Assembly: GCA_010356995.1 (NCBI GenBank)
Contig: ML996696.1
Coordinates: 2,364 to 66,363 of the forward strand
Length of the DNA stretch: 64,000 bases
Direction: 5' to 3'
DNA from: Trichodelitschia bisporula
Taxonomy: Eukaryota > Ascomycota > Dothideomycetes > Phaeotrichales > Phaeotrichaceae
Shown here: in pieces, positions 13,178-15,669 of the stretch
How positions within the stretch are numbered: the first letter of the stretch is position 1
Layout: each line of letters starts with the position of its first letter
Made by a program: the position numbers and the translations under genes
Notes under the pieces: model-generated
What the model saw: the letters and a program-made list of their open reading frames with translations, nothing else
What the model was told of the DNA's origin: nothing
Database searches by the model: none

Positions 13178-15669
13178 TTAGATTTCGGGCAGGTTGGACA
13201 CACATATGTTGTTCTTAATACAGACCTTTGACTTTGGAGTGCAACCCTTCATGGTGACCGGCTTGCACTCAAACCCCTCAGAGCACCACCCCTCCTCGCC
13301 GCAGGCCACACTGTGCGGAGGTTGGCGCGGTTGGCGCGGCTGAATCGACGCATCCTTCGACGTGGGCGGAGGGTCATTGGGGTCCGCAAGGCAGAAGCCC
13401 TTGGTAAACTTACAAAAAACAGGATTCTTGCAAGCTGGCGGGTGGATCAAGGTGCAGCGGTAGTGCGCGGGGCATTTGTCGACGTCGTCAAACGGGTTGC
13501 AAGACATCGGGGACGGATCGGCACGCTTGGACAACTCATCGGCTTCGCTGTCACGAACATCGCTCATTTCCTCTGCGCCAGATGACAAGACGGTGTCGTC
13601 AAAGCAGAAGCCTTGGGCCCCACAAACTTTCGAGTCCGGATCCGAGCACCCCTCTGGGAGGATGACGGTGCAGTGCTTGCCGTTGGGACATCGATGTTTC
13701 TTGTCGCATTTGGCGGGAAATACAACCGTCCGCTTCATCAAGTTTTCGGCCTCCCACCCTTGCACCTCAGCGACGTTCGGGAAAGCAGGTGGCGGGGGCG
13801 TAGGCGAACCGGGCGGCGGAGGACTGTCGATGTCTATCATACGGTGGCCTTGGCCTCTGCCGCACCGATCAATATCCGGATCCGGATTCAGGCATCCTGA
13901 AGGGAAGAAGAGGTCTAAGACGTAGTAGTCGGGGCATTGAAGGAATTGGTTAAGGGGGCGGCAATCGGAAATCCATCCGTCAGAAGGGTTCAGGTCCCTG
14001 GACGCCAGGGCGCGGTGAAAATCTGCGACATCTGGAGGAGACACGTCAGTATCAATTACCACCAGACATAAGCACTATAAACATTGAATGTAGACTCACT
14101 GTAGCCAACAGGACCCATAGCGGCCTCGTGGACGTCCCCTGTCGGAGGCCAAATTCGACTCGGATTTGTGTGAGTTGGACGCGGCTTAGGGCGATGGTGC
14201 AGAGGACCTTCATCAGAACGCTTTTCTCCCACAACAGGAATATCTTCGCTCTCAGAATGCTGGTTCGGGGGCACCGTCGGCCAGAACTGAGTGACGGTTA
14301 CCGCAGCGACAGTGACAGTCACAACGGCCTGCGGAACATGAGTCGTCGAGCGGAGCGGAGGCTGTAGATTGATGTCGAAGTCGTTTACAGCTCGCCGATT
14401 CGGAGGAGGGAGAACAGCAGGGGTCGTACCATGGATCGGCGAACGAGTCGTGACGCTGAACGGAGGCTGCGGCTTCTGCTTCGTTACCGGCTGGGTGTGA
14501 GGATTCGGCTTGGTGTAGGGATTCTCGTCGAAGTCTTCAACGGCCCGCCGACGGGGGGGATGCGAAGGCGCGGGCTTTCCCTTCGCAGGTGTAAGCGGCG
14601 GCTTCTTGGGGGGGTCCAAAGCGGAAGACTTTCCCTTCGCGGGCGCATGATGCGTTGTGGTATACCGAGGATGGCGCCAAGGCTCCGCGGCCGGTTCAAC
14701 AACGCCAATGTCGACGGAGCGGCGAGTCGGAGGATGATTCGGCTTGGGATGATGCGACCTTGGATGATGAGGGCGACGGTGCGGATGCACATTATCCGCA
14801 TCATCGTCCACGTCGACAGAGCGGCGAATTGGGGGATGCGGTTCCCAGGGCACTCCCTTCGCCGCTGTATGCTGCAGCTTGGGAGGATGCGGCTCAGGAT
14901 GGTGAGGACGGCGGCGCATATCCTCTTCGTCCGCACCATCGTCCACGTCGACAGAACGGCGAGCTAGAGGGTGATGCGGCTTGGGATGGTGCGGCTTGGG
15001 AAGATTGGGGCGGCGGTGCCGGTCCTCCTCGTCCGCACCATCGTCCACGTCGACAGAGCGGCGAATCGGAGGCAAGGTCGAATTCGAGCTACCATAAACA
15101 GTGCGGCCTGTCTCGATGCAGGCACCCTCCTGGCACATACATCCAGCGATGGGAAGATACCCACAGAGCCACGTCTTGTTCACACAATGCGACGGGGTCA
15201 AAGGAGGGAACTCGGCAGCCTTGTTGGCGCAGATGGGAACAGGGCCGCAGCACGTGTGAATGTTGACCTGACCACAATCTGCATCCGAAGCGCACTTGAA
15301 CTTGGCGTCGACGTTCCGGTTGATTGGGCTCGCCTTGTGGGGAGGAGGCTGAGCCTTGGCGGGCTTCCCGATCGGAGGTGGACCGTCGGGAAACTCGGGC
15401 ATGTCAAAGCGAGGAGAGCAGACGCCGAACTCATCTTCGCAATGGCCGAGTGCCCAGTACCCACAGCCACGGTTCTCGGCGTCGCCGGGCCTACACTCGT
15501 ACCCCTCGGGGCACAAGCCAGTCTTCACCAAACAGTACGTGGCATCGAGGGGAAGCTGGGGAGGGTCGACGGAAGTGACGTTTCCAGCAGCAAGAGGCTT
15601 GCCGACTGCCGGCACAGCGCCAGTCGCTGCGAAGAAGGCAGCGAACGCTGTCAGTAAAGACAGCTTCAT
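13178..15669 (-). CDS. secreted Cys-rich protein with repeated Kex2-type sites (807 aa)
   Basis: Two exons (14100-15669 and 13178-14031, intron 68 nt) give 807 aa. A clear signal peptide starts it (MKLSLLTAFAAFFAATGAVP). Four similar six-Cys modules lie at residues about 46-84, 632-666, 701-737 and 767-800, spaced C-x5-8-C-x5-C-x7-9-C-x5-7-C-x5-6-C. A ten-Cys segment lies at 126-184 and a four-Cys segment at 547-580. Between the Cys blocks, dibasic sites recur after residues 204, 238, 283, 317, 375, 426, 484, 624 and 693. Four are followed by SVD and two by the identical acidic string SVDVDDGADEED, each heading a His/Pro-rich spacer. I infer a secretory precursor that Kex2-type protease could cut into several peptides. 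Part of 450-462 (VVTVTVAAVTVT) is Val/Thr-rich. I know no named family that matches; a wall-associated Pro-rich protein is the alternative. Confidence 0.8.

Follow-up and report, generated by a model that had tools for sequence, protein, structure and literature searches.

A predicted mosaic precursor with six-cysteine modules and Kex2-type repeat units in Trichodelitschia bisporula

The gene and its surroundings

The gene described here lies on the minus strand of a 64,000-nucleotide stretch of Trichodelitschia bisporula DNA, the whole of which is called the window in the following, and its features are collected in Table 1. An earlier reading made from the letters only, referred to as the sequence-only reading, had placed the gene at exactly these coordinates. 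Exon 1 extends from 15669 to 14100 and exon 2 from 14031 to 13178 including the stop codon, and translation after splicing yields 807 codons plus stop with no internal stop; unspliced, the frame of exon 1 would end at a stop codon at 14056-14058. The splice call for the 68-base intron is a prediction from the sequence alone. The protein starts with MKLSLLTAFAAFFAATGA, which by inspection looks like a signal peptide and agrees in this respect with the earlier claim. A 24-base unit repeated 6.8 times with 97% matches (15753-15916) lies some 83 bases upstream of the ATG; this tract is CT-rich on the coding strand and may be promoter or 5' leader.

Table 1. Features of the precursor gene, with positions in the window
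Feature	Residues	Position	Strand	Basis
Whole gene, ATG to stop, one intron	807 aa	13178..15669	-	spliced translation
Signal peptide (putative)	1 to ~23	15601..15669	-	by inspection only
Module M1, six Cys	46-84	15418..15534	-	Cys positions
Ten-Cys block	126-184	15118..15294	-	Cys positions; weak NCBIfam TIGR04289 match
Unit 1, after RR204, SVDVDDGADEED head, His/Pro tail	205-238	14956..15057	-	sequence comparison
Unit 2, after RR238, SVDVDDGADEED head as in unit 1	239-283	14821..14955	-	sequence comparison
Unit 3, after RR283	284-317	14719..14820	-	sequence comparison
Unit 4, diverged, after RR317	318-375	14545..14718	-	sequence comparison
Unit 5, diverged, after RRR375	376-426	14392..14544	-	sequence comparison
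Unit 6, diverged, after RR426, KR at its end	427-484	14218..14391	-	sequence comparison
Intron, 68 bases, GT-AG, TACTGAC (resembling a fungal branch site) 13 bases before its end		14032..14099	-	sequence; branch-site consensus
Module M2, degenerate, without Cys 3 and Cys 6 (four Cys in aa 547-580)	547-587	13841..13963	-	Cys spacing, core comparison
LMKR site before M3	KR, 623-624	13730..13735	-	motif and coordinates
Module M3, six Cys	632-666	13604..13708	-	Cys positions, spacing, structure model
LSKR site before M4	KR, 692-693	13523..13528	-	motif and coordinates
Module M4, six Cys	701-737	13391..13501	-	Cys positions, spacing
Module M5, six Cys; M4-M5 interval without dibasic site	767-800	13202..13303	-	Cys positions, spacing

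Of the stop-to-stop ORFs in the window, 78 are 180 aa or longer, and a Pfam scan took in 40 of them; two of the 78 are the gene itself and 36 lay outside the scan. The matches among these 40 ORFs comprise COG3, RCC1, Fig1, a lactonase-type propeller, Cnn_1N/Mto2_bdg, CLP1_P, RNA_polI_A34, SHMT, an aldo-keto reductase, a carboxylesterase, a TPP enzyme, MFS, a protein kinase, SURNod19 and a Luciferase domain. The Fig1 gene (11759-12511, plus strand, E 3.8e-60), which presumably has a role in mating, is convergent with the precursor gene. Two ORFs with a SURNod19 domain lie on opposite strands (54513-55667, minus; 56552-57388, plus), and a tRNA is located near them (54330-54410, minus). Furthermore, a GAAGAT hexamer is repeated about 22.7 times at 38982-39116, at the end of the ORF 38580-39119 on the plus strand, and the weak Pfam matches of this ORF (PARP, DNA_pol_phi) fall in the hexamer tract. 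A Cys-containing ORF on the minus strand (47111-47875) carries CGASSYCCTGDPECDC near its start and has no Pfam match.

Cysteine modules and the ten-Cys block

By Cys count, the four full six-Cys modules and the ten-Cys block named in the sequence-only reading are all present. The spacings between consecutive cysteines are 6-5-9-7-6 in M1, 5-5-7-7-5 in M3, 8-5-7-5-6 in M4 and 5-5-7-6-5 in M5, and the profile of the six-Cys module reads C-x(5,8)-C-x5-C-x(7,9)-C-x(5,9)-C-x(5,6)-C. In addition we found a fifth module, M2, which the earlier reading had left unnamed. It has 13 residues between Cys 2 and Cys 4, as in M3-M5, with Leu at position 3, a longer loop of 9 residues between Cys 4 and Cys 5, and His 586 or Arg 587 instead of a Cys at position 6. 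A comparison of the non-Cys columns in the ungapped Cys 2-Cys 4 core of M2-M5, in which the register of M2 was chosen by hand after viewing its sequence and from which M1, a module with a longer core, was excluded because MAFFT had misplaced it, gave a score of 41; the 20000 shuffles average -73 (sd 20), and none of them reaches this score. When M2 is taken out, 41 of 20000 shuffles reach the score of the M3-M5 core, and pairwise the core of M2 is reached by 10 of 20000 shuffles against M4, by 51 of 20000 against M3 and by 2666 of 20000 against M5, the last of which is not significant. We count five modules that appear to be related, one of them degenerate.

As M2 lacks both Cys 3 and Cys 6, we propose a Cys 3-Cys 6 bond in the other modules, and the joint loss of the two, although a single case, suggests this pairing. 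In knottins the disulphides are C1-C4, C2-C5 and C3-C6. The joint absence in M2 fits the C3-C6 bond of such a cystine knot. The structure model of M3 contains two strands (pLDDT 77.6, pTM 0.45). A Foldseek search with the M3 model, which was built from a four-row alignment, returned three matches with E values of 7.7-9.3, which are meaningless. A profile of four modules retrieved a single match from the PDB sequences, Ecp6 with an E value of 0.077 over 17 positions, which we take as chance. The N-terminal 202 aa matched only two PDB chains (E 1.9), and the single-sequence structure model of the ten-Cys block, with a mean pLDDT of 40.2, is useless.

In Pfam, the whole protein matched no family at E 10, neither hydrophobin nor any other Cys-rich family, and the matches of its pieces are all below the cut-off, with Lustrin_cystein at 0.032 for M1, Dickkopf_N at 0.082 for M5, Herpes_UL92 at 0.23 for M3, Ldl_recept_a at 0.54 for the ten-Cys block and none for M4 (M2 was left out as a separate query). 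The modules are matched above cut-off by neither Pfam nor NCBIfam, nor convincingly by the PDB. Membership of the ten-Cys block in TIGR04289, an eight-cysteine-cluster domain whose model comes from the NCBI bacterial/archaeal library, was considered and rejected: the match is near full length, but with E 0.062 and 13.9 bits it falls far short of the curated cut-off of 50 bits. As none of ten Cys-fixed shuffles of the block matched NCBIfam, this hint does not come from the Cys spacing alone, at least in this small control. Relatives were sought in collections of prokaryotes, plasmids and viruses, which says little about fungi, and none turned up for the full protein or its N-terminal part (M1 and the ten-Cys block) in viral contigs, for the ten-Cys block or the C-terminal part in genome contigs, or for the ten-Cys block in plasmids. 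The titles and opening lines of abstracts in the literature searched name neither this protein nor the module.

Dibasic sites and the repeat units of the linker

The motif [KR]R occurs at 14 positions, of which nine are usable (P1 at 204, 238, 283, 317, 375, 426, 484, 624 and 693) and five were set aside, namely 220, 254 and 299 with Pro as the next residue and 253 and 374 with Arg as the next residue inside RRR. Pro at P1' is disfavoured by Kex2. Its occurrence at none of the nine usable sites follows from this selection, just as K/R at P2 and Arg at P1 are the search rule itself. The count of nine dibasic sites in the sequence-only reading is reproduced in this way, and so are SVD after four of them and SVDVDDGADEED after two. 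Kex2 prefers at P4 Leu or another aliphatic residue including Pro and Ala (PMC8528282, excerpt); eight of the nine usable sites carry Pro or Leu there, the exception being GEKR at 484 with Gly, and P4 alone does not discriminate, as two of the dropped sites (299 and 374) have Pro and one (254) has Met at this position. Over aa 24-807, sites with P4 in LIVAP and a next residue other than P, K or R number eight against a mean of 1.46, a count reached by none of 20000 composition shuffles; with the P4 condition dropped there are nine against 3.97 (193 of 20000). Within the Cys-free linker (aa 186-545) the corresponding values are six against 1.17 (9 of 20000) and seven against 2.98 (296 of 20000), with the reservation that duplication of a single unit accounts for part of the linker sites, which are therefore not independent events. 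Six linker sites share the context [PL]-x-R-R-[SA]-V-[DEN].

The six Cys segments account for 245 of the 784 mature residues and contain none of the nine sites; under random placement this has p = 0.034, a weak test. Since no site falls in a Cys segment, every predicted fragment holds an even number of cysteines (16, 0, 0, 0, 0, 0, 0, 4, 6 and 12 in order).

Units 1-3 (34, 45 and 34 aa) have in common an SVDVDD head, an internal RR-P and a tail rich in HH and HP, and their identities over 36 aa, counted from two residues before RR, are 0.67, 0.67 and 0.56. Over 14 codons, units 1 and 2 encode the identical protein with three synonymous changes, and unit 3 shows one synonymous and four non-synonymous changes relative to unit 1, and two and four relative to unit 2. 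Units 4-6 are alike in little besides the start of the shared context, with DFD in units 5 and 6 and 36-aa identities of 0.28-0.33 for the pairs computed. The GRAVY values of units 1-3 (-1.93, -1.57 and -2.13) are very hydrophilic, and that of unit 6 is -0.16; HH is present in units 1-4, and Tyr is missing from units 1-3 and occurs once each in units 4 and 5. The first 12 residues after the nine sites contain, in order, 7, 7, 5, 3, 4, 2, 2, 1 and 2 acidic residues, and a pronounced acidic head is confined to units 1-3. It is possible that this head serves as a propeptide. A self-search of the window for paralogues gave, among the matches listed, Pro/His-rich low-complexity matches besides the gene.

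Alternatively, the gene may encode an extracellular or cell-wall protein that is uncut or barely cut, in which a long, disordered stalk rich in Pro and His connects disulphide modules at the two ends and the RR pairs are compositional. We regard this as rather unlikely, but several features speak for it: the linker is Pro- and Arg-rich, its first three units are hydrophilic down to a GRAVY of -2.13, some of its dibasic pairs stand before Pro and would be poor Kex2 sites, and the excess of sites is modest once the P4 condition is dropped. Against a stalk speak the common context of the usable sites and their excess over the composition shuffles under the P4 condition, as well as KR623-624 and KR692-693, which lie between modules and have Leu at P4.

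Predicted processing and comparison with known precursors

The open spliced frame, the dibasic sites and the modules with their spacing can be read directly from the DNA, and we consider it somewhat more probable than an even chance that they encode a secreted mosaic precursor which is cut by the Golgi protease Kex2. The anatomy, i.e. the site context, the position of the sites outside the Cys segments and the even Cys number per fragment, supports the cleavage predicted here and in the sequence-only reading. Kex2 would cut at up to nine sites. At the N-terminus, M1 and the ten-Cys block would come off as one fragment with 16 Cys, and the linker would give as many as six peptides that lack Cys and are 34-58 residues long. 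In the C-terminal part, M2 would lie in a fragment with 4 Cys, M3 would form a mini-protein with 6 Cys, and M4 and M5 would remain together as a double module with 12 Cys. Trimming of the Kex1 type would then take off the basic tails, and the modules might fold as independent disulphide units with the Cys 3-Cys 6 bond. A consistent release of single modules is contradicted by the lack of a separating site between M4 and M5. With low confidence, and from composition only, we suppose that the very hydrophilic His/Pro-rich peptides and the modules could have an extracellular role, either in the wall or in the medium, such as metal binding or wall association. A more far-reaching version, in which an undescribed six-Cys family, possibly cystine knots, is released by Kex2 together with His/Pro-rich linear peptides as a fungal counterpart of progranulin, is put forward only tentatively.

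Kex2 might instead remove a pro-region, as in the K2PP pattern; cleavage would then be limited to one site or a few, and the mature product would consist of the C-terminal modules. The KR sites ahead of M3 and M4 (LMKR and LSKR) are the most canonical ones, and fungal effectors are known to lose pro-domains via Kex2 (PMC8528282, excerpt). We nevertheless consider this improbable, as the pro-region would comprise about 600 residues and itself contain 20 Cys and repeated sites, while pro-domains are described as typically N-terminal and often without secondary structure (PMC8528282, excerpt).

The suggestion of the sequence-only reading that the repeat units are RiPP cores, which would make the gene a precursor of a cyclic RiPP of the dikaritin type, found no support among the ORFs scanned and seems very improbable to us. 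Its putative signal peptide and Kex2-spaced repeats would be in line with such a precursor, and the HH-containing types G-3 and G-8 of the Kex2-processed repeat proteins (KEPs), which units 1-4 resemble in carrying HH, are reported to neighbour DUF3328 genes (PMC7329392, excerpt). Against it, neither DUF3328 nor tyrosinase was matched in the 40 of 78 ORFs (at least 180 aa) scanned, many of the ORFs with matches look like ordinary cellular genes, and as far as scanned the window contains no RiPP cluster. DUF3328 genes neighbour only 22% of the surveyed KEP genes (PMC7329392, excerpt), and therefore their absence says nothing against a KEP with linear peptides. A six-frame scan of the window for UstYa-type motifs turned up no HCxxx[LIV]R-type string; the five HxxHC strings that it did find are implausible, lying in sequence that is low-complexity, off-frame or interrupted by stops, and none is in a credible ORF. 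The absence of Tyr from units 1-3, with one each in units 4 and 5, also speaks against RiPP cores. Kex2-spaced repeats beside a convergent, presumably mating-related Fig1 gene might also bring to mind an alpha-type pheromone precursor. This is barely conceivable, as XA/XP dipeptides, the STE13 signature (PMC6339444, excerpt), follow none of the nine sites, and units as long as 34-58 aa alongside large Cys modules are at odds with such a precursor.

As to the predicted Kex2-cut mosaic precursor, it stays under the 15% repeat limit of one KEP definition and is a borderline case by another. Le Marquer 2019 (PMC6339444, excerpt) asks for a signal peptide, at least four fragments at KR/RR, at least three similar fragments and repeats of at least 15% of the protein. 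Cutting at every KR/RR yields 13 fragments, among them three SVDVDD fragments of 13-14 aa that are alike by eye, and the repeats then cover 4.8% of the 807 aa with these three, 6.4% with the four SVD fragments and 8.1% with five [SA]V[DEN] fragments. Cutting at the nine usable sites only, with 34 aa per unit, gives 12.6% for three units and 25.3% for six; therefore, the shortfall from 15% depends on the cutting rule. Umemura 2020 (PMC7329392, excerpt) asks for at least three tandem repeats of at least 8 aa between Kex2 sites with a score above 0.6 and 40-aa seeds, and by our own calculation the 40-aa identities are 0.60 for units 1 and 2, 0.70 for units 1 and 3 and 0.50 for units 2 and 3, which makes the fit borderline. 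The precursor shares with KEPs an apparent signal peptide (by inspection), the repeats between KR/RR sites and the HH motifs, the latter known from two KEP types (PMC7329392, excerpt), and differs from them in that non-repeat, Cys-rich sequence fills most of its length. The word cysteine does not occur in the searched text of PMC9769878 and PMC7329392 (both in part).

The modules of the precursor are unmatched above cut-off in Pfam and NCBIfam. The view of the sequence-only reading that the combination is unrecognised is nevertheless too strong, because there are precedents in Ustilago maydis, where Hum3 appears to be the nearest architecture found and Rep1 the nearest in fragment size. In Hum3 (828 aa), a hydrophobin domain follows 17 imperfect repeats, each 31-36 aa long, and putative Kex2 motifs separate 14 of them (PMC4617103, excerpt). 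Hydrophobins are Cys-rich, and the precursor likewise joins repeats with Kex2-type sites to Cys-rich parts in one chain. Unlike in Hum3, Cys-rich sequence, in the form of five modules of the six-Cys type and the ten-Cys block, borders the repeats at both ends, Pfam gave no hydrophobin match, and units 1-3 are His/Pro-rich and hydrophilic, whereas the Hum3 repeats are amphipathic (PMC4617103, excerpt). In Rep1, whose repeats measure 34-55 aa, Kex2 cleavage yields 10 peptides of 35-53 aa along with a longer one of 228 aa (PMC4617103, excerpt), and the predicted peptides of 34-58 aa come close to this size, but units 1-3 are strongly hydrophilic in contrast to the amphipathic, fibril-forming Rep1 peptides (PMC4617103, excerpt). 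Furthermore, in animal progranulin, too, Cys-rich modules are strung together in one chain and may be set free by proteolysis (PMC4527844, excerpt); the likeness is one of described architecture, and Pfam gave no granulin match.

If the co-release holds true, one gene would give rise to two chemically different sets of extracellular peptides. Mosaic precursors of such a design would drop out of a survey that keeps only proteins whose Kex2-cut repeats amount to 15% or more of the chain (PMC6339444, excerpt). The modules, if released, would constitute a small disulphide-rich family that is unmatched above cut-off by Pfam and NCBIfam and has in the Cys 3-Cys 6 bond a testable feature.
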